Positions 214 to 35,913 of a stretch of DNA of 43,150 bases are shown one piece after another. Under the pieces are notes generated by a model, which did no database searches, was not told the origin of the DNA, and worked only from the letters and a program-made list of their open reading frames with translations. The position numbers and the translations under genes are program-made. Position 1 is the first letter of the stretch. Each line of letters starts with the position of its first letter. Source of the DNA: a virus; the IMG/VR virus record IMGVR_UViG_3300012354_000003, positions 1 to 43,150 of that record. One strand, written 5' to 3'.

Positions 214-798
214 TCAACTACCAAATTGAACCCGCGGCACTTTATTTGCGCCGCTATCGGCCTTAAACAATGTACGCTCTTTGAATCCGTACATGTTAGC
301 AAATAGATTGCTCGGAAAGCGTTGTGTCTGAATGTTATATCTCGTCACTGTGTCGTTATATTTATCGCGGGCGCTCGCGACACCATTCTCAGTCTTGGAC
401 AGCTCGCCGATCAATGACTGGATGTTAGCACTGCTCTTTAGGTCGGGATAATTCTCGGTAATTACTAGCAGTCTGCTAAGCGCTGATTCGGTACTACTTG
501 CAGACTTTGCCTGGTCGTCAGCACTCCTTGACCCTGCATACTGGCTACGCGCCTGAGCTAAATCGCCAAATACCTTTTGTTCTTGCAATTGTGAACCCTT
601 TACCGAGGCAACCAGATTGTCGATCAGATCGAGCCGTCGCTGATATTGAGTTTCTACCTTCGACCAGGCCTGATCCACGCCATTTTTTGAAGTCGTCAGA
701 GAATTATATGAACCGGCAAATATCGCGCCTACAATGAGTAGAACCAGGAGTACGCCCCCGAGAACTGATACAGTAACAATTGCTTTCTTATTCTTCAT
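214..798 (-). CDS. lemA: LemA family membrane-anchored protein
   Basis: 194 aa. A Lys-rich start (MKNKK) precedes one N-terminal transmembrane segment (about residues 7-29) and a long helical extracytoplasmic domain. The LemA family signature is clear: N-G-V-D-Q-A-W-S-K-V-E-T-Q-Y-Q-R-R-L-D-L-I-D at 39-60, and ITENYPDLKSS near 114-124. LemA proteins are widespread bacterial membrane proteins of unclear function, often next to TPM-domain or peptidase genes. Finding one in a phage is unusual. It starts 2 bases after the Ser-rich membrane protein gene, so the two are probably translationally coupled and may form one envelope-modifying pair (inference). Confidence 0.9.
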   Translation of the reverse strand: MKNKKAIVTVSVLGGVLLVLLIVGAIFAGSYNSLTTSKNGVDQAWSKVETQYQRRLDLIDNLVASVKGSQLQEQKVFGDLAQARSQYAGSRSADDQAKSASSTESALSRLLVITENYPDLKSSANIQSLIGELSKTENGVASARDKYNDTVTRYNIQTQRFPSNLFANMYGFKERTLFKADSGANKVPRVQFGS

Positions 799-2742: not shown

Positions 2743-2823
2743 TTATCCTTCCTCGGCTGCTCGCCGTAGCGCATGAATGGGTGAAAGCGAAGCCGGCCGA
2801 CTCCTGAAACGCCCGGGTGACAT
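2743..2823 (-). CDS. Possible 26-aa Arg-rich peptide
   Basis: ATG at 2821-2823 with a GAAGAAGAG purine tract upstream. The peptide is Arg/Pro/Ser-rich (MSPGRFRSRPASLSP...) and stops 2 bases before the next ATG. The spacing suits a small coupled leader ORF, but length alone gives little support. Confidence 0.3.
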   Translation of the reverse strand: MSPGRFRSRPASLSPIHALRRAAEEG

Positions 2824-2846
2824 TTCTCTTCTTCATCCGCTACAGT

Positions 2847-2869
2847 AAGCAGCCGAAACTGCTTACGTG
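2847..2869 (-). other. Stem-loop after the 74-aa membrane protein gene
   Basis: Read on the minus strand, GTAAGCAG pairs with CTGCTTAC around a 6-7 base loop, directly after the stop at 2871. No T-run follows, so it is more likely an mRNA processing or stability hairpin than a terminator. Confidence 0.45.
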
Positions 2870-2870
2870 A

Positions 2871-3095
2871 TTAGGCTCGTGCCTTTTTTGCAACTGGTTT
2901 GATGCGTTCTTTCTTCTCAGCCAAGTTCAGGGTGTACCAACCAAACTCCAGGCCAATCGCGTACAGGATCGCTCCCGTACCCAGAACCTGCAAGACCGGA
3001 ATGTGACCCATGACCTCTAATGGCGGGAGCAAAAAGGTGCTCGCACCAGGTACGATTAGTAAAAGTTTGTTTAAGAACGTTAGGATTGTTTTCAT
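2871..3095 (-). CDS. Small two-span membrane protein (holin-like size)
   Basis: 74 aa. The ATG at 3093-3095 follows an AGGGGG ribosome site. An upstream in-frame ATG at 3120-3122 is rejected because it lies in the base of a large RNA fold and has no ribosome site. Hydrophobic spans are at about 8-33 and 38-58 and the C-terminus is strongly basic (AEKKERIKPVAKKARA). Small size, two spans and a charged tail resemble class II holins, and a lysin-like gene lies upstream. A clear lysis block exists elsewhere, so the role is uncertain. Confidence 0.65.
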   Translation of the reverse strand: MKTILTFLNKLLLIVPGASTFLLPPLEVMGHIPVLQVLGTGAILYAIGLEFGWYTLNLAEKKERIKPVAKKARA

Positions 3096-3116: not shown

Positions 3117-3339
3117 GTTCATACAGTCGCATGGAAGCCAGTAGAGACTCCCTGGGTTGCAACCTTGACTACCTACTCCCTATAGGGTTTCAGCAGATCT
3201 TAGCTTCTACTGGCTACTAGCGATAAACTCAATGTAATTACCGCTAGCGACCACATAAGTTTCCTTGCCAAAACGCGATTAAGGCATTAGAACACAAACG
3301 ATTTTTTGCGTACTTATGTGGCCATGTGACTGTATGAAC
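3117..3339 (-). ncRNA. Candidate structured RNA: tight four-way junction
   Basis: No gene fits 3096-3598. By eye, 3117-3134 pairs with 3322-3339 (18 bp, one non-Watson-Crick pair) and encloses three arms: 3137-3145 with 3206-3214, 3217-3226 with 3238-3247, and 3251-3260 with 3312-3321. Linkers between arms are only 0-3 bases, as in a folded RNA junction. On the minus strand (sense of the operon) the 3217/3247 arm and the neighbouring 3358/3408 hairpin gain G-U pairs. The closing stem gains its wobble on the plus strand, so strand is not certain. It could be an ornate phage ncRNA, a translational control element for the 74-aa gene starting 22 bases later, or a DNA structure such as an origin. 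Confidence 0.55.
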
Positions 3340-3357
3340 AGTTTTAGTTTTGTTAGA

Positions 3358-3408
3358 CGATACCTACGGTCAAGTGGGAAATTTCCTTACTGCTGACCGC
3401 AGGTATCG
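3358..3408 (-). ncRNA. Long hairpin next to the four-way junction
   Basis: 3358-3372 pairs with 3394-3408: 15 bp with one position that is G-U on the minus strand and A-C on the plus. The enclosed segment can extend the stem through GGAAATTTCC. Together with GCTAG-CAAC-CTAGC (3420-3433) and TGGAGA/TCTCCA (3445-3450 with 3469-3474) it forms a second domain of the structured region. Confidence 0.5.
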
Positions 3409-3598
3409 GAGATGTTTCTGCTAGCAACCTAGCGACGTTGTTCATGGAGAGCTGAGAGAATAAGCACGTCTCCAAACCATCTATGAAAATACTTGAGGAC
3501 TGTGTGGGTGAGCTACACTTTCACGGGGTAGGTACTAGCCATATAAGCCTGGCTCTTGCTGTGTGCCTATGCCCTCAGGTCCCCATGAACAACGGATT
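3409..3598. other. Gene-free remainder of the structured region
   Basis: Contains the two short hairpins noted for 3420-3474 and an outer pairing of 3491-3498 with 3573-3580 (8 bp with one T-G pair in plus sense). No open frame with a ribosome site is visible. It looks like a continuation of the structured RNA between the lysin stop and the four-way junction. Confidence 0.35.
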
Positions 3599-4069
3599 TT
3601 ACTTACATGCCCAAAGCCCCTGCTGCCCTGCTGCAAACATCTGCGCAGTCACCTCGGCATTCGCACGTGGGTCAAAAACTGAAGCGCCTGACCAGCCATA
3701 TTTAGCTGCCCGAGCAGGCCAATATCCACTTACGTGTTGATAAAGCCCCGACGGGTTGCCGTTCTCGTAATAGCTATGATTAACCGAGTTCGGATTCAGA
3801 CCGCTCTCACATTTCGCCACACGCACAAAGTGCTCTTCGTCAATGCCGTACTTGCGAGCCGCCTGCCGTACGATGAGTTCAATGTCACCGCCGGATGAAG
3901 CAGCCGCTTGGGGCGGACTGACTTTGGGATGTGTGTACTGTGCAATTTCGGTAATGTGCACAGTCGATAGACTAACCCGCAGCTTTGCTGGCTGCTGTGT
4001 GTGGATAGTCAGATTGTTAAAATGCGCTGGTTCTACAACCTTGTTGGTTGGAAGAGGCGTAACTGTCAT
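3599..4069 (-). CDS. Secreted lytic transglycosylase-like muralytic enzyme
   Basis: 156 aa from ATG 4067-4069. A Pro/Thr-rich N-terminal stretch leads into a C-terminal lysozyme-fold domain (about 62-156): VAKCESGLNPNSVN with candidate catalytic Glu88, GNPSGLYQHVSGYW, DPRANAEVTAQMFAAG and a closing W-A-C. C87 and C155 probably form a disulfide. Such domains cleave peptidoglycan and are common in Actinobacteria and Patescibacteria. The annotated ATG has no ribosome site. Extending to ATT at 4112-4114, 7 bases after a GAGGA, adds MRISTALIGTVTSVLM, which looks like a signal peptide (171 aa total). It lies in an early-type operon with erf, apart from the endolysin. Confidence 0.8.
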   Translation of the reverse strand: MTVTPLPTNKVVEPAHFNNLTIHTQQPAKLRVSLSTVHITEIAQYTHPKVSPPQAAASSGGDIELIVRQAARKYGIDEEHFVRVAKCESGLNPNSVNHSYYENGNPSGLYQHVSGYWPARAAKYGWSGASVFDPRANAEVTAQMFAAGQQGLWACK

Positions 4070-4269
4070 CAGAACCGAAGTGACAGTGCCTATCAGCGCG
4101 GTCGAGATACGAATAATCGTGTCCTCGGTTACGCTTCACCGCAGCCTTGCAGTTAGCGCGGTGGCGGAGTTTGTAAGACTCTGCTGTTCGTTTGTCCCCC
4201 TTATGGCAACCGCTGAGATAAGTGACTTATGAGCGTGCGTTCATGGGACACGGGTTTTTGATCCGCCTG

Positions 4270-4304
4270 CGTGAGGCTACTAGGAGTGACTTACTAGCCT
4301 CACG
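4270..4304. other. 10-bp stem-loop in the leader of the lysin operon
   Basis: CGTGAGGCTA (4270-4279) pairs perfectly with TAGCCTCACG (4295-4304) around a 15-base loop. No T-run follows on either strand, so it is not an intrinsic terminator. It lies between a terminator (4313-4340) and the lysin gene in the same transcript. Confidence 0.5.
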
Positions 4305-4312
4305 GGGTAAAT

Positions 4313-4340
4313 AAAAAACCGAGTGTTTTCTTCAACTCGG
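4313..4340 (-). terminator. Intrinsic terminator inside the lysin-operon leader
   Basis: On the minus strand CCGAGT (4340-4335) pairs with ACTCGG (4324-4319) around a 10-base loop, followed by six T residues (4318-4313) and more AT. It lies about 125 bases downstream of the strong promoter at 4472-4500 and before the lysin gene. It therefore acts either as an attenuator or as the end of a separate small RNA. Confidence 0.75.
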
Positions 4341-5541: not shown

Positions 5542-5582
5542 ACTAGAAAACTCGCCCTGGGCGCCAAGGCGAGAGATCTAGT
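5542..5582 (-). terminator. Terminator-like hairpin in the leader of the winged-helix gene
   Basis: Minus strand: CTCGCC (5573-5568) pairs with GGCGAG (5556-5551), followed by TTTT (5550-5547). An outer ACTAGA/TCTAGT stem (5582-5577 with 5547-5542) extends it. It begins about 10 bases after the predicted start of transcription, so it looks like an attenuator. Confidence 0.6.
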
Positions 5583-5596
5583 AAGTCACTGCTTAC

Positions 5597-5625: not shown

Positions 5626-5668
5626 GACTTTTGTTACTGCTTATAACCACGGCCAAGTGATTAAATTA

Positions 5669-6049
5669 TTAGCCTCTTACTGCTTGATACTCTTTCGAAT
5701 TGCGAGAGTAGATATTCTCAGATGAGTTACCCCCATGACCTATCTCCGTAGCGTCACGCTGTAAGGAGCTTGACCAGTCCTTTAACTCTTTTCGCACAAT
5801 CGACTTTACTGCTTCACGTTTCATCGGGTCGTCTGTCACCGCGTCAACAATGGTAAGCATCCGTCCCATGAGGTTCATTTCTGCCCTCATACATAGGGTC
5901 GGTAGGCAGCTGTAGCGCTCTATTGATCGAATGAAGACCGCAATCGGGTCGTTTGATTCTTTAACGGTTGTTTCTACCCTGGTGCCATCAGCATAAATAA
6001 TAAATGCTGACAGTTCTTCATACGCTGGTATCTTCTTTTCTTCTAACAT
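5669..6049 (-). CDS. Hypothetical protein (126 aa)
   Basis: AGAAGGAG ribosome site before ATG 6047-6049. Soluble and mostly helical in the second half, with Lys/Arg-rich M-K-R-E-A-V-K-S-I-V-R-K-E-L-K. No family recognised. It is the last gene of the lysis transcript, upstream of the promoter at 5597-5625. Confidence 0.65.
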   Translation of the reverse strand: MLEEKKIPAYEELSAFIIYADGTRVETTVKESNDPIAVFIRSIERYSCLPTLCMRAEMNLMGRMLTIVDAVTDDPMKREAVKSIVRKELKDWSSSLQRDATEIGHGGNSSENIYSRNSKEYQAVRG

Positions 6050-6112
6050 AACTGAAACTCCTTCTAAACTAAACTTGGCCGTGACTATAAACAGTAACTA
6101 CATACTTCCTCC

Positions 6113-6307
6113 CTACTTTTTATTGCTCACCACATAAACTCCCAGAGAACCCGCAAACGCCGTCAGTACTTGATACCATTCATTGGTGTTAACAGCAAAG
6201 GCCGCCTCTGTGTCCGTCGGCATACAGGCGAATAACAGTACACCGGCCGTTGCTATCAGTGCTGTGTAGAACTTTGCATACTTGCTTGGGTTTTTAAAAA
6301 TGTCCAT
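6113..6307 (-). CDS. Holin-like membrane protein
   Basis: 64 aa, strong AAGGAG site. The first transmembrane span (about 12-29) is followed by a short acidic loop and a second span (EWYQVLTAFAGSLGVYVVSN, about 43-62). The W-Y-x-x-L-T-A-F-x-x-x-L-G-V-Y-V pattern is that of small two-span holins encoded beside endolysins in actinobacterial phages. Its role would be timed membrane permeabilisation. Confidence 0.75.
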   Translation of the reverse strand: MDIFKNPSKYAKFYTALIATAGVLLFACMPTDTEAAFAVNTNEWYQVLTAFAGSLGVYVVSNKK

Positions 6308-6417: not shown

Positions 6418-6678
6418 TTAACTTTCGTATTCTTTAATTGCTGGCAAAATTGCTTTCAACAGCGCCGCCAACTTCGGATCGTCCACAGTAATCTGCGGAT
6501 TCTGCAAAGCTGCATCCACCTTAGCGACCCACGACATGTGCGCCGAGTTGGCCTCACACCAGCGGATCATGCCATTTGTTTCGTTACCTTTCCATGCCTT
6601 GACGAACTCATCGCTGGCTGGATAGCCGAAGTACGCTTGTGATAGCGAGTTCAGCTCATATCTGTCGACCGTGCTCAT
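6418..6678 (-). CDS. Internal start: separate endolysin C-terminal domain (86 aa)
   Basis: Inside the endolysin gene, in frame, ATG 6676-6678 follows AAGGAGGAG (6689-6681), stronger than the site of the full-length start. The product (MSTVDRYELNSL...) is exactly the C-terminal domain after the linker. Several Gram-positive phage endolysins make such a free binding domain that assembles with the full-length enzyme. The sequence evidence is the ribosome site and its placement at the domain border. Confidence 0.7.
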   Translation of the reverse strand: MSTVDRYELNSLSQAYFGYPASDEFVKAWKGNETNGMIRWCEANSAHMSWVAKVDAALQNPQITVDDPKLAALLKAILPAIKEYES

Positions 6679-7119
6679 ATCTCCTCCTTCTAATTGCTTC
6701 GGGCGCAGATACCCGAGGATAGTGTTATCGATTGAATGCCGGACATATCTGCCCGGACTGCCTACGGTGAGGCTGGCATTGAACCAGTTCTGGTCAACTG
6801 AGGTAAAATAACTATCCTCAACAGATACAATGCCGTTCGTAATGTGTCCCAAGCCGCCATTGGATGGTGCCCGCTTAAAGACGGCGATATCACCCGGTTG
6901 TGGCGGGTTGCTACCCGGCGGAATGTAGTCGTAATTCTTGATGTACTCGTGGTTGTCCCAAATGTCCGCCGCATTGCGATAGGCCGAGAACGGCGCACCC
7001 AGGAACTCGGAATACTTTAGCGCCCCAACCATACACTGCGCCCCATAAGGATTGCGCGGATCGGTCTGAGCGCGACCAACGGTGGACTTTAGATAGTCAG
7101 TGGCTTGCTGGACGATCAT
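6418..7119 (-). CDS. CHAP-domain endolysin
   Basis: 233 aa from the ATG overlapping the holin stop (ATGA, 7116-7119). The N-terminal CHAP amidase/endopeptidase domain (about 20-140) has candidate catalytic Cys29 (YGAQCMVGALKYSEFLG), His92 (GGLGHITNG) and Asp109/Asn111. PPQPGDIAVFKR and ILGYLRP are typical family strands. A linker (KQLEGGD) joins a C-terminal domain of about 86 aa that is probably a cell-wall binding module. A strong internal ribosome site precedes Met148, so the C-terminal domain is probably also made alone. Confidence 0.9.
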   Translation of the reverse strand: MIVQQATDYLKSTVGRAQTDPRNPYGAQCMVGALKYSEFLGAPFSAYRNAADIWDNHEYIKNYDYIPPGSNPPQPGDIAVFKRAPSNGGLGHITNGIVSVEDSYFTSVDQNWFNASLTVGSPGRYVRHSIDNTILGYLRPKQLEGGDMSTVDRYELNSLSQAYFGYPASDEFVKAWKGNETNGMIRWCEANSAHMSWVAKVDAALQNPQITVDDPKLAALLKAILPAIKEYES

Positions 7120-7349
7120 GGTTTGCTCATAAAGTAGATGATGAATGGTGTCGCCAGCACAAGAATCGTACCAATGATCCCGATTGACCACTTCAACCCC
7201 TTAATCGTACCGAACGTATTCTCAAGCGAGCGCAAACGCACCTCATGATCCGCCTGTGAGGAAATGAAATTATCAATCTTGGCCTCAACACGAATTAACG
7301 CGTCATGGTCTTCTCTTTGCATCTTTTCCAAATCAGCTCTCTCCGTCAT
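7116..7349 (-). CDS. XhlA-like holin or spanin-type protein
   Basis: 77 aa from MTERADLEKMQ (ATG 7347-7349, AAGG upstream). Residues 4-48 are coiled-coil/helical and a single C-terminal span (WSIGIIGTILVLATPFIIYF) ends with a short tail. This matches the XhlA/haemolysin-type proteins next to endolysins. The stop overlaps the endolysin start by 4 bases. Upstream GTG codons in the same frame cannot be excluded as starts. Confidence 0.75.
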   Translation of the reverse strand: MTERADLEKMQREDHDALIRVEAKIDNFISSQADHEVRLRSLENTFGTIKGLKWSIGIIGTILVLATPFIIYFMSKP

Positions 7350-7631: not shown

Positions 7632-7688
7632 CCGTGGAGTATAAATTGTGAGCCCCATCCCTAGACTCCACGGCTAGGGATGGGGCTC
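7632..7688 (+). promoter_or_regulatory. Chaperonin leader RNA: 15-bp hairpin whose loop pairs with the 5' end
   Basis: 7650-7664 pairs perfectly with 7674-7688 (15 bp). The 9-base loop ACTCCACGG (7665-7673) is perfectly complementary to CCGTGGAGT (7632-7640), only about 6-14 bases from the predicted transcript start. Both pairings cannot fully coexist because no linker bases remain, so this looks like a switch or a partial pseudoknot controlling the GroES-like gene at 7713. Confidence 0.7.
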
Positions 7689-7712
7689 GTACCTTATAAA
7701 GAGGGGGGTAGA

Positions 7713-8093
7713 GTGGAACTATCAGCACTAAACGACCTAGCAAAGATCAAACTTGATAAAGATGAGTTTGGCTTTGGGTCAGATTCAAAGGGCACCGCAG
7801 AGAGTGGGGTACTTATTGCATTACCTAGTAAATTCAATTATTTCGGCATGTGGAGTTTTGCTTTTGAGGCCAGCTTTATGCGACACGGCAAACTTAAGAA
7901 ATTGCACAGATACTGGCAATCAAAGATCGGCCATCGCGTCTATTGGACTGCTCTTTCCGAAAAAGGCAACATCATCGAGAAGGACGGCGAGCGATTCGCT
8001 TTCGTCAAATTAACTAGCCTAATCGCCGAAGACGACGCAGACAGCACAGCACATAATATCCACAGCGATGGAGCAGGGAGTTTTTCATTATGA
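7713..8093 (+). CDS. GroES-like co-chaperonin (divergent)
   Basis: 126 aa from GTG 7713, behind GAGGGGGG. An upstream in-frame ATG at 7680 lies in the leader hairpin and is rejected. The frame of a GroES/gp31-type protein is visible: an N-terminal beta strand (LAKIKL), a Gly/Ser-rich mobile-loop-like segment (FGFGSDSKGTAESGVLIALP), an insert with aromatic residues, and the C-terminal barrel part (SKIGHRVYWT, KDGERFAFVKLTSLIA) like GroES VGDIVIF...DILAIVEA. It would cap the adjacent GroEL, and overlaps its start by 4 bases. Identity to GroES is low, so the call rests on pattern and context. Confidence 0.65.
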   Translation: MELSALNDLAKIKLDKDEFGFGSDSKGTAESGVLIALPSKFNYFGMWSFAFEASFMRHGKLKKLHRYWQSKIGHRVYWTALSEKGNIIEKDGERFAFVKLTSLIAEDDADSTAHNIHSDGAGSFSL

Positions 8094-9655
8094 GTCAAGC
8101 AAAAAGAGATCACAGAATCATTATCAAAGGCGACCAGGCGCGCGCCGAATTATTGGCTGGTGCACGATTCGTCTATGATGCTGTCACCTCGACCTATGGC
8201 CCCCGTGGTCGTAACGTTATGATTGAAAAGCCCTTTGGCCGGCCATTAACCACCCGCGACGGCGTATCAGTTGCCCGCGATACTTACTCGTCAGATCGCC
8301 CAAAAAACATGGGTGTTCAGCGTGTACTCGAGGCTTCCGAAACGACCAACCGGATTGCTGGTGACGGCACCACCGCCACCGTCGCCCTTGCTTACCACCT
8401 CATGCAGCGCGGCACCCTAGCGATTGCGGCTGGTATGCATCCGATGGAAGTCAAGCGACAGTTCCTGCAGGATAGTTACAAAGTACTCGACAAACTCACC
8501 GCAATGACCAAAAAAGTCAAAGATAGCCAGCTGAAAGAGGTGGCGACTATCTCCTCCGGCGACCCACTCCTGGGCGAACTAATCGCCGATGCTGTCCTGC
8601 GCGTCGGTGCTGAGGGGGGCATCATTACCGAGAAAGCTCCAGTCGATGACATCGAGCGTGAATACGTCGACGGCTACTATCTCCAGACAGGCTTCCAAGC
8701 ACTGCAAGCAGGTAAAAAAGAGCTAATCGATCCCTTCGTCATCGTCTCTATCCGTCGCCTGACCTCCGCCGCCGACATCGCCGACGTTCTAACCAAAGCC
8801 TTGCAATCCCGCAGTTTTAATCCTCAGACCGATGGCATCCCTCGCTTCTTGCTCATTGGTAATATCGAAGAAGCTGCTTACATGACTGCGGTAAACCTTA
8901 TTAATCAAGGAAAGATTGATGCCGTTATTCTGAAAACTCCCGCCATGTTCGGCGAGATGGGCAAATACTTACTTGAAGATATCGCCATCTATGCACGCTG
9001 TAACCCACTAACAGAGGGGTCTAACCTACGTGAACTAGACACATCCTGTGTAGGAACTGTGGATAAGGTAGTTGCCAACAAAAATGAGGCTACCCTATTT
9101 GCTGATAACGACACCGAAGCCGTCAAAACCCGCATTCAGGAAATCAAAGATCAAATCGAAGCCGAATTATCCGATGCTGTTAGTGAGAAAATGAAAGATC
9201 GCGTCGCCAAACTTGAGGGCAAGATCGCTCTCTTTCGCATCGGCGGCGCAATTGATAGCGTCAAAGAGGAGGTCGAGTCTCGAGTTGAAGACGCCATTCA
9301 CGCTACTCGCGCCGCCTACAGCACAGGTGTTGTCCCCGGGGGTGGTATTACTCTGCTTGAACTCAGCAAATTAGAAATCAGCGCGCCCTACGGTGAAGCC
9401 CTGCGAGACACCTTCATGCAACTGCTAATCAATGCTAACCTGCCCGCAGAGTTAAAACTCAATGAGGCAATGAAGGCTCCCGTAGGCAACGGATTTAATC
9501 TCAAAGGCAATGGCGAGCTTGTCGATATGGTCAAGACCGGAATCATCGACCCCGCTCTAGTCGTCCAACAAATCATCAAGAACGCCACAGCCAGCGCCAC
9601 AGACATGTTGACCACCGACACCCTCATCGTCTTCGAGGATGCGAAAGAAGAATAA
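8090..9655 (+). CDS. groEL: GroEL chaperonin, phage-encoded
   Basis: 521 aa. All ATPase signatures of a group I chaperonin are present: TYGPRGRNV near 35-43, DGVSVARD with Asp57, AGDGTT at 90-95 (Asp92), and VEDAIHATRAA with Asp401, equivalent to E. coli Asp52, Asp87 and Asp398. GVVPGGG follows. The apical domain (about 190-330) is divergent, and the C-terminus ends E-D-A-K-E-E without the GGM repeats of bacterial GroEL. The TTT of the usual DGTTTAT motif reads TTAT. Probably folds capsid or other phage proteins with the GroES-like partner. Translationally coupled to it by ATGA. Confidence 0.97.
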   Translation: MSQAKRDHRIIIKGDQARAELLAGARFVYDAVTSTYGPRGRNVMIEKPFGRPLTTRDGVSVARDTYSSDRPKNMGVQRVLEASETTNRIAGDGTTATVALAYHLMQRGTLAIAAGMHPMEVKRQFLQDSYKVLDKLTAMTKKVKDSQLKEVATISSGDPLLGELIADAVLRVGAEGGIITEKAPVDDIEREYVDGYYLQTGFQALQAGKKELIDPFVIVSIRRLTSAADIADVLTKALQSRSFNPQTDGIPRFLLIGNIEEAAYMTAVNLINQGKIDAVILKTPAMFGEMGKYLLEDIAIYARCNPLTEGSNLRELDTSCVGTVDKVVANKNEATLFADNDTEAVKTRIQEIKDQIEAELSDAVSEKMKDRVAKLEGKIALFRIGGAIDSVKEEVESRVEDAIHATRAAYSTGVVPGGGITLLELSKLEISAPYGEALRDTFMQLLINANLPAELKLNEAMKAPVGNGFNLKGNGELVDMVKTGIIDPALVVQQIIKNATASATDMLTTDTLIVFEDAKEE

Positions 9656-14825: not shown

Positions 14826-16780
14826 TGCAGCACCTCTTGCACCAGCGTATCAATTACCGTGCTAATACTCGTAATTGTCGGGCTCTCGGTCACCGTGTCG
14901 TCACAGTAGATATTTATCCCCAGTTGCAGCTCGTTGAATCTACCCTGCTTACCCGTACTGCCGAACATGCTCGTTCGGGCGTAGTTCTGTAAATCCTGCC
15001 AGGTATTCGTATTTGTGAACCTATTGGACACATTAAATGCTCCTCGATTAATGGAATACTCCAGTTCAACACCGACACCATTCGGCAGCGCCAGCCATGA
15101 TCCCTCCATATAATTCGCCTCTTTATCCTTACCGACATACCCTCCGTCATAAATCAACGTCTGCAAGGTTGAAAAAGCCGCCGGTTTCGAGTTGCTGTTC
15201 ACCACATCCACACCGTACCCACCGTTCAGATCATCACGCCAAGATATCAGCAGATTGTCACCGAAGTTCTGCACCATGCCAATGCTCAGATTATTGCTAC
15301 CAGAATAAGTCTGCGAGCCAGTACTAAGCAAATAACTATAGCCAAACGAATTAGGTAGATTCTTGTCTACCTGACCCCAGGAATACACACCAAACTGAAT
15401 ATTAGTGTTAATCGATACCGATGGCCATGCCATCAGTTGAACACCGTTACGCACCGTCGCCGCATATGGATAAATCTTGGTCGAATCGTTGTTGTTATTA
15501 TAACCATTCTCGCCAAACGGCATCGTTCTGATCTTCATCGGCTGCGAATTAGCCGACGACATGACATACCAAGCACCCCCAGCATAGTAATACAGAATAT
15601 TCTTGTTCTGGTGAATAGCATACGGTGATCCTTCGGGTACCAACGTAAAGTAGTTATAAGTCGAACTCAGCCCATCCCAAAAGAATATAATCCCATCCTG
15701 CGGTGTATTGGATGCGCTGCTGCTCCTTTCGCAAGCAATCGCCAGGTACTCGTTAAATACTGCCAATCCACACACTTCATAGCCAGGCGGGAAAGTCAGT
15801 TTATGTCGCTGCCACTCGCTATTTGATGGCGCAGGCTGACCCAGAGGTTCGTAGACGCTCAAATAATGCTCGTTGCCGATGCAAATAAACTGCTGGAAGT
15901 TTGTTATTGGGTGCATGCCATTGATCGGCTGTACCAAGCGATCCGCCCACAACTGCATATCACAGGTGCTCAGATCATTAGCGGTCGTCGATGACACCGT
16001 ACCATCGGCAACGGTGGATGTCAGATGGAAGTGATATGTTTGCGCTGCTGGTGCGACCTGCGCCCTTACTGGAGTAGAAAAAGTAAAGTCATTCCACACA
16101 TTATTCACTAAGTTCGCATTGCTGACTGTTGCAGTCCCCAAAGAATTATTCAATCCGTCATGCAACGTCAACGTCCAATTCCCCGTTCCTTTCGCAACAA
16201 TAAATACTGATATCTTATTAATTGGCTCGATATCTGTCTGAAGATATCTCAGTTGTGACATACCTTCGCCCAATGTCGTCAGAATAGCCGTCGTCTTCGC
16301 GCCGCCCGCCTGGTTGGTATTCACGTTGAAGGTAGCGTTGGTCGTATTATCGTAGGTTGACTGTGAGATATTATAGAAGTTCGGCTGCAATACGGGAGTT
16401 GTGTTTAGCGGACTATATAGGCTAACTGTCTTAGCATGGGCAATATAAATTGCGTTCTGATCCTGACGATATGTCATGCCAAAATATCCGGCGGGTAGAT
16501 TCCCCTCGCTTGACCATACGCCAGCAGTTGTGCGTTTATAGAAGTACCCGCCACTACCAATTGCATAGATCGTTCCCGCGCTCGTCATGACGGCATTCTG
16601 TACAAGATCCTTGACCACTCCGCCATCCTCGCGGGTAGTGCGTGACAAAACAGTAATCTGCGACGGTGACTTGCGGAAATCAATTGATTGCGAAAAAGCA
16701 AACGAATTAGGGATACCGACCTTCTTGTCGGTCGCCCAGCCGCCCGAGAAATTGCTTAGAATTAATGGTTTTTTAGCCAT
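14822..16780 (-). CDS. P22 gp10-like tail/packaged-DNA stabilisation protein
   Basis: 652 aa. N-terminus (LILSNFSGGWATDKKVGIPNSF...) is typical of podovirus DNA-stabilisation/tail-hub proteins. Repeated Y-A-I-G-S-G/I-Y-I-A-H/Q-F-I-C-I-G-N-E/L-A-I-A-C-E strands suggest a beta-propeller body. It follows the gp4-like adaptor by one base, as gp10 follows gp4 in P22-type tails, and would plug the portal after packaging. Confidence 0.75.
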   Translation of the reverse strand: MAKKPLILSNFSGGWATDKKVGIPNSFAFSQSIDFRKSPSQITVLSRTTREDGGVVKDLVQNAVMTSAGTIYAIGSGGYFYKRTTAGVWSSEGNLPAGYFGMTYRQDQNAIYIAHAKTVSLYSPLNTTPVLQPNFYNISQSTYDNTTNATFNVNTNQAGGAKTTAILTTLGEGMSQLRYLQTDIEPINKISVFIVAKGTGNWTLTLHDGLNNSLGTATVSNANLVNNVWNDFTFSTPVRAQVAPAAQTYHFHLTSTVADGTVSSTTANDLSTCDMQLWADRLVQPINGMHPITNFQQFICIGNEHYLSVYEPLGQPAPSNSEWQRHKLTFPPGYEVCGLAVFNEYLAIACERSSSASNTPQDGIIFFWDGLSSTYNYFTLVPEGSPYAIHQNKNILYYYAGGAWYVMSSANSQPMKIRTMPFGENGYNNNNDSTKIYPYAATVRNGVQLMAWPSVSINTNIQFGVYSWGQVDKNLPNSFGYSYLLSTGSQTYSGSNNLSIGMVQNFGDNLLISWRDDLNGGYGVDVVNSNSKPAAFSTLQTLIYDGGYVGKDKEANYMEGSWLALPNGVGVELEYSINRGAFNVSNRFTNTNTWQDLQNYARTSMFGSTGKQGRFNELQLGINIYCDDTVTESPTITSISTVIDTLVQEVLQ

Positions 16781-16781
16781 A

Positions 16782-17684
16782 TCACGTCAATGGCCCCGGT
16801 ACTGGCGGGATTAGCCATGGGTTAAGGTACATATCATCTTCGGATATTACGTTGCTCGACATGCTGCTCGAATACTCTTGTTCGCAATCCAATTGCAGTT
16901 GATTGAATAAGCCCGTATGAAATTGGCTACGCTGTTCATTTCCTTGTGAGGAAAAATAATTACCCAATGCATAGTGCATCGGAGCATCCACATACTGCGC
17001 TGGCAGAATACTTAACTGACCAATCCGCCACGTTTTACCCGCTCCAGAGGTAGCGACATATGCCGACTTCAATGTCAATGTCGTTGCTGTCGCTGCCACA
17101 ATTTCATACGCAGTCGTGTCTATCTCGCCGGTTACCTGAAAGGACAAACCCGCCAAGCTCGAGCTAAAGACACTACTCGATGCCGTCACCGTCGCCGATC
17201 CATTCGTCACCGTGACCGTCGCACTTGTGGTAGTCGATGTAATATCCTCGATTGATAAATCGCCCGCAGTCGGCTGGTAGTAAAATCGCAACCCATTAGT
17301 CACGTTCTGTGACGGTACAGGCCACACCGATAGCTCGTCGTTGCCGATCATGAAATACCAAGCAGGCCAATTACTAGTCTGTTGGTATGAAGTAATCCCG
17401 CGCCACTGATACTCACTCCGCACTTCTTTCACTGGTGGCTGATAGGTATTGCTGACCATCACCGTCATGCCGGATATGCGCACGCAATCGACTGGCGTTT
17501 GATAGATCTGTTGATTCGCAATCAAGTTGGTAAACTGTTGTTTCCGTGTATAATAGCGGGCTAGTTTGGCATTAAACAGTTGGTAGCCGGTGTTCATATC
17601 CTGTTTAGCCTGTGTCAGAGTCCCGGGATTATCGTCGCGGGCTAGCCGTTGAAACTTCAGTTCTTGATCTGTCCAAGTAATCAT
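16782..17684 (-). CDS. Head-tail adaptor, P22 gp4-like
   Basis: 300 aa. N-terminal helices (TDQELKFQRLARDDNPGTL...GYQLFNAKLARYYTRKQQF) and a body with W-Y-F-M-I-G-N-D-E-L-S-V-W-P-V-P are characteristic of gp4-type portal adaptors in short-tailed phages. Residues about 155-210 look like an inserted Thr/Ser/Val-rich Ig-like domain. The C-terminal helix includes YALGNYFSSQGNEQRSQFHTGLFNQLQL. Confidence 0.75.
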   Translation of the reverse strand: MITWTDQELKFQRLARDDNPGTLTQAKQDMNTGYQLFNAKLARYYTRKQQFTNLIANQQIYQTPVDCVRISGMTVMVSNTYQPPVKEVRSEYQWRGITSYQQTSNWPAWYFMIGNDELSVWPVPSQNVTNGLRFYYQPTAGDLSIEDITSTTTSATVTVTNGSATVTASSSVFSSSLAGLSFQVTGEIDTTAYEIVAATATTLTLKSAYVATSGAGKTWRIGQLSILPAQYVDAPMHYALGNYFSSQGNEQRSQFHTGLFNQLQLDCEQEYSSSMSSNVISEDDMYLNPWLIPPVPGPLT

Positions 17685-35724: not shown

Positions 35725-35748
35725 ACCAGCCTATCTTTTAGTTTAAAT

Positions 35749-35850
35749 AAAAAAGGACGACCGTGCGGTTGTCTACACCTACAGCTGGAGTTGTCTCCGA
35801 GCTTACACGGTCGCCCATTCATGGAGATAACTTAAGCTGTAGTGTAGACA
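35749..35850 (-). promoter_or_regulatory. Switch-like leader: terminator versus 5'-end pairing
   Basis: Minus strand: GGGCGACCGTG (35816-35806) pairs with CACGGTCGTCC (35765-35755), followed by T6 (35754-35749), an intrinsic terminator. The 16 bases at the predicted 5' end (35850-35835) are complementary to 35786-35770, inside the terminator loop, with one bulge. Forming the second helix would topologically hinder the first, so it may act as antiterminator. Confidence 0.65.
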
Positions 35851-35855
35851 GGACG

Positions 35856-35884
35856 ATTATACCATTCCCATACGACCGCACCAA
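35856..35884 (-). promoter_or_regulatory. Sigma-70 promoter before the switch-like leader
   Basis: Minus strand: TTGGTG (35884-35879), 17-bp spacer, TG-G-TATAAT (-10 at 35861-35856). Predicted start near 35849. The -35 lies in a 10-bp inverted repeat (about 35872-35905, ACGGCCGCAC with GTGCGGTCGT in minus sense, one G-U). Confidence 0.75.
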
Positions 35885-35913
35885 CATCTCGAAAGTGCGG
35901 CCGTAAAGAAATG

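Follow-up and report, generated by a model that had tools for sequence, protein, structure and literature searches.

The DNA analysed here (the window) is a 43,150-base contig of an uncultured phage, in which the gap between a lysozyme-type gene and a gene for a small membrane protein is filled by a structured stretch of ∼480 bases (3117-3594, minus strand). The lysozyme-like gene lies directly upstream, and along the minus strand its stop codon (3599) is followed by a branched module (module 1, 3594 to 3436), a small hairpin, a 15-bp hairpin, a second branched module (module 2, 3339 to 3117), and the ribosome-binding site and ATG (3095) of the membrane-protein gene (Table 1). Within the region, the minus strand holds no open reading frame (ORF) of at least 60 amino acids, and its small ORFs (40, 23, and 19 amino acids) all begin with TTG; none is credible, and a protein-coding explanation of this gap was rejected.

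Table 1. Features of the structured region and its flanks in the window
Feature	Position	Strand	Details
Lysozyme-like gene (SLT transglycosylase domain)	3599-4069	-	Pfam SLT (PF01464) above cut-off; syntenic lysozymes in G002, G025, and G030
Module 1	3436-3594	-	Closing stem 3563-3594/3436-3467 around two arms, 3555-3539/3526-3510 and 3500-3487/3482-3468
Small hairpin GCTAG/CTAGC	3420-3433	-	
15-bp hairpin	3358-3408	-	Arms 3358-3372/3394-3408, 15 nt, 93% complementary
Module 2 (four-way junction)	3117-3339	-	Closing stem and three arms
9-bp direct repeat CAAAACTAA	3107-3115, twin 3344-3352	-	Flanks module 2; possible insertion scar, weak
Small membrane protein	2871-3095	-	Two apparent hydrophobic helices; likely start ATG 3095 after AGGGGG
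Element E3 (second structured element)	2751-2858	-	After the membrane-protein gene; 27-nt arms; ends just before the next gene's ribosome-binding site

The small membrane protein matched nothing in Pfam or PHROG and is termed holin-like from its size, its helices, and its place. A second endolysin gene (CHAP, 6418-7191), adjoined by a gene for another small membrane protein (6113-6307), is present, so lysis may depend mainly on an enzyme other than the lysozyme at 3599-4069. The signal-peptide-like lysozyme frame (3599-4130, minus strand) stays open upstream of its ATG (4069) to an ATT after CGAGG, with an identical arrangement in the relative G002, and the true start may lie a little upstream, at this rare ATT codon. 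Ahead of the lysozyme, ∼250 nt (4060-4320, minus strand; 16629-17013 in G002) are roughly 83% identical to G002, which is above the identity of the lysozyme's own catalytic part, and are a candidate noncoding leader or attachment-site region. The near-palindrome ATAAGTCACTTAT / GTAAGTCACT occurs at 4218-4230, 4282-4294, and 5581-5593 (4 matches versus 0.7 expected) and may be an operator for a repressor or an arm site for an integrase. Several relatives carry, just upstream of the lysozyme, an integrase gene (L005, 5338-6222) or tRNA, tRNA-like, and tmRNA-like fragments (L221, 1971-2044; L204, 1914-1988; L258, 1954-2017), which places the lysozyme probably beside an attachment site.

Other observations concern more distant parts of the contig and a relative. 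A 24-nt inverted repeat (21/24; 5635-5658 and 6073-6096) brackets the gene at 5669-6049, a LemA-family gene lies at 214-798 (minus strand), and a GroEL gene (7680-9655, plus strand), which is kept in the syntenic relatives, has a small gene before it. At ∼35745-35885 (minus strand), a promoter-like TTGGTG-17-TATAAT precedes a long hairpin and then a T run, and the loop of the hairpin could base-pair with sequence after the stem; this looks like a small RNA gene. A G002 gene (L068, 976-2127) contains a long in-frame repeat coding for (SAW/SAG/SAR)n, the DNA of which forms a nearly perfect hairpin of ∼270 nt.

The initial annotation had described a gene-free tract at 3117-3580 with an 18-bp closing stem, three arms, short linkers, and an adjacent 15-bp hairpin, and stem search and folding located all of these where they had been placed. 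The closing stem of module 2 (3322-3339/3117-3134, 18 nt) has one mismatch on the minus strand; the arms, of 10 to 13 bp, are formed by 3312-3321/3251-3260 (10), 3238-3248/3216-3226 (11), and 3202-3215/3136-3149 (core 3136-3145/3206-3215, 10), and the linkers between them measure 0 to 2 nt. The start of the tract also held, but its structure continues to 3594, and the list of stems had omitted the largest one of the region, the closing stem of module 1 (32-nt arms, 30 bp), which is the best long-range stem of the contig. With this stem added, the region comprises two stem-closed modules and two hairpins rather than a single four-way junction with a hairpin. A possible pairing between a loop of module 1 and one of module 2 (TACCTACCCC with GGAGTAGGTA) was set aside, as a rough estimate puts the chance expectation for a region this large at about three matches of the kind.

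Folding energy sets the region clearly apart from shuffled sequence. For 3117-3594, the z score was −8.56 on the minus strand and −6.85 on the plus strand, with none of 100 shuffles folding as well on either strand, and in a GC-corrected scan of the whole contig the three best-scoring segments were this region on the minus strand. There is thus a strong, real structure at 3117-3594. The pairing of module 2 is read from folding energy, because no homologue of its four-way junction was found in any sequence searched; G002 lacks it at the corresponding position.

Two genomes are syntenic with the window across the locus, namely, G002 (terminase 95% identical) and G025 (80%). Their gaps between the lysozyme and membrane-protein genes also fold strongly, with z scores of −6.5 for G002 (where the folded stretch takes in part of the lysozyme gene) and −9.16 for G025, and are likewise built of stem-closed branched modules; G002 has a stem-closed module of ∼150 nt where the window has module 1, and the G025 gap contains a possible 50-amino-acid ORF with a ribosome site. 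The gap sequences themselves cannot be aligned with that of the window, except for the 15-bp hairpin, which is 77% identical in G002 (nhmmer E value, 1e-6) and is the only alignable part of the region. In the more distant G030, one 100-nt stem module lies between the lysozyme and a small membrane-protein gene, just before the ribosome site AAAGGAGG, whereas the corresponding gaps of G037, G043, and L004 are without structure. In the window, G025, G030, L211, and L222, no more than ∼20 nt separate the end of the final stem from the ribosome-binding site that follows. Across the window, G002, G025, and G030, the modules have no sequence in common beyond a single hairpin shared by one pair and a single stem shared by another, and no conserved core was found to connect the modules of the window with those elsewhere among the phages. 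A DNA search of phage records with the region gave no match, and both a DNA pattern scan of IMG/VR for the 15-bp hairpin and a scan with the holin alignment returned G002 only. A set of 52 loci related through the Erf gene was discarded because, G002 excepted, they are not syntenic. That equally strong folds occupy the same spot with almost unrelated sequences points to a shared RNA role.

Where stems could be aligned, we looked at how substitutions fall on the pairs, each comparison being between one pair of sequences. The 15-bp hairpin differs between the window and G002 by seven substitutions, comprising two two-sided and three one-sided changes, and no pair is broken, whereas an average of 4.5 broken pairs would be expected from random substitutions (P = 0.001); the check for covariation proposed with the initial annotation thus came out in favor of this hairpin. 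Likewise, seven substitutions between a stem of L240 and that of G025 break no pair (P = 0.0005), and none of the 16 between the modules of L222 and L224 newly breaks one (P = 0.00005), so that over the three comparisons 30/30 substitutions preserve pairing. The proposal of a functional structured RNA therefore draws support from the folding energy, from the strongly folded stretches at the equivalent position of relatives, and from compensatory changes in the region's one alignable stem, the 15-bp hairpin, but not from a match to a known family.

The wobble pairs had originally been taken to give a mixed strand signal. By energy, the minus (gene) strand is favored in each of the three syntenic genomes, being the more stable by 10 to 17 kcal/mol in the window, G002, and G025, although such a comparison over loci is biased because the loci were chosen by gene-strand z score. 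Alignable stems contain 13 G-U versus 0 A-C appositions on the gene strand, having been picked by RNA pairing, and a strand-neutral count gave a modest excess of G-U over A-C (38:22; P = 0.03). These observations favor an RNA and make a role of the DNA less likely.

A scan with the lysozyme C-terminal domain yielded 76 phage loci for a survey seeded by the lysozyme, in which other gaps and random windows from the same loci served as controls. The 200 nt after the lysozyme stop had z scores below −2.5 in 31.6% of the 76 loci, compared to 16.7% of other gaps of at least 150 nt and 11.2% of random windows; the share truly like the window's fold is lower than this count, since some folds may be ordinary terminators. 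The distribution of post-lysozyme z scores was shifted relative to other gaps (P = 0.006) and to random windows (P = 0.0002; rank tests). Very long stems occurred in 19 of 80 sequences (a set that takes in the window, E3 elements, and a few near-duplicate loci), versus 1 to 4 after shuffling. One subfamily (G025, G030, L240, L241, and L243) shares the stem GTGCTRGTAG/CTACTAGCAC, which was rejected as a motif common to all because it is missing from the window, and L222 and L224 form a second subfamily. The modules vary among phages in number and in size (about 100 to 540 nt). Which gene follows them is variable, too (membrane protein, GroES-like, and others), and this makes a holin-specific role unlikely.

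Our preferred reading, to which we assign a probability of about 50%, is that the region is a structured intercistronic RNA of the minus strand, cotranscribed and acting in cis, that insulates or times the gene after the lysozyme. One message would carry the lysozyme gene, the small membrane-protein gene, and the following genes, and the two branched modules and two hairpins would hold the lysozyme stop apart from the next ribosome-binding site. The fold may keep ribosomes that finish the lysozyme from restarting on the next gene in cis, and the two parts of the message could receive separate stability or processing, for example, by cleavage in the long stems; the membrane protein would thereby be made at its own rate and time. 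Closure of the structure right before the next ribosome-binding site would suit both functions, namely, shielding the next gene from translation of the lysozyme and letting the two parts decay or be processed separately. Element E3, which is placed likewise ahead of the following gene, repeats the arrangement of the main region; its arms CGGCTGCT/AGCAGCCG are kept in G002 and G025, and it is 83% identical to that of G002. This cis-acting role is weakened by the variable downstream gene, the unstructured gap in some relatives, the missing common core, and the modest wobble test. In addition, the strongest promoter-like site (4500-4472) appears from the sequence to be cut off from the lysozyme by a terminator-like hairpin and T run near 4310-4340, which complicates any account of how the message is made.

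The size, the compact multiarm fold, and the gene-poor phage location would also suit a large noncoding RNA acting in trans in the style of GOLLD or ROOL, cut from the message or made apart from it and serving as a folded particle or scaffold in infection. GOLLD and ROOL, phage RNAs that are larger and whose function is unknown, are often close to tRNA genes (PMC12286853), and in some relatives (L221, L204, and L258) the lysozyme has a tRNA or tRNA/tmRNA-like fragments in its vicinity. The region resembles them in being large, multibranched, noncoding, and phage borne; it differs in being smaller, in lying between a lysozyme gene and the next gene of the same strand, and in its varying modules without a shared core, unlike GOLLD, which has a universally conserved 3′ region (PMC12286853). 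The initial annotation had raised GOLLD and ROOL as candidates, and identity with either is ruled out by the lack of a covariance-model match: Rfam 15 at the gathering score matched no family in the whole window, a relaxed search (E values up to 5) gave one chance miRNA match (19.8 bits versus 72 needed), and Rfam searches over 14 related loci found only a tRNA, outside the region. No promoter or terminator of its own was found at the flanks of the region, and we consider a trans-acting RNA unlikely. With the packaging RNA of phi29 (under 200 nt), the region shares its phage origin and a compact, branched form, but the terminase gene here is ∼29 kb off, the position is tied to the lysozyme, and Rfam gave no match.

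Slightly less probable still is an element acting at the level of DNA, either a hairpin site for recombination or integration or a small mobile unit, with module 2 as a recent insertion bearing a 9-bp target duplication. Module 2 has an 18-nt inverted repeat and, on both sides, the 9-bp direct repeat CAAAACTAA, which in a MITE-like element would be the terminal repeats and the target-site duplication, and it is missing at the same place in G002, a genome with an integrase gene and a tRNA-like fragment close by; its inverted repeats fold as DNA, too (minus strand of the region, z score of −7.28). However, no further copies of the modules were found in the phage's own genome, its relatives, phage records, or 2 Mb of related sequence, a 9-bp repeat may arise by chance, and the unit is filled by internal arms, which is unusual for a simple inverted-repeat element. 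Changes in the alignable stems, moreover, keep G-U pairs on the gene strand.

Equally improbable, in our estimate, is a plain spacer for nuclease processing or message stabilization, without finer regulation. In T7-like phages, intercistronic RNase III sites, such as those separating early genes of T7, are strong stems between genes of one message, and the region resembles them in its strong intergenic stems (15 to 30 bp), which are likewise proposed to separate the expression of neighbors. Strong folding retained without sequence would suit such a spacer, as fast turnover is expected if only double-strandedness matters. Against this, the region is much larger than those sites, two tightly branched stem-closed modules in a row exceed the needs of a cleavage site, and any processing here is putative. 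A riboswitch-type RNA was rejected for want of a conserved ligand-binding core, as was a replication origin, since the cumulative GC skew falls steadily through the region with no turning point and there are no iterons or repeat array.

Beyond the window, the intercistronic RNA favored above could tentatively belong to a class of phage RNAs set by place and architecture, with sequence that turns over almost completely, that times or insulates genes after the lysozyme in a broad set of uncultured phages; we hold this wider claim less firmly than the local one. Structured phage RNAs as such are a known kind, and what would be new is conservation by position and shape despite sequence turnover. 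RNA-family searches based on sequence would miss such folds because the sequence changes so fast, and folding the gap after the lysozyme offers a simple search rule for more cases. The phage yield of an infection depends on when lysis occurs, a timing for which proteins are the usual explanation. Were these folds to control the gene that follows the lysozyme, phages of uncultured hosts would have in RNA architecture a widespread additional layer of control.
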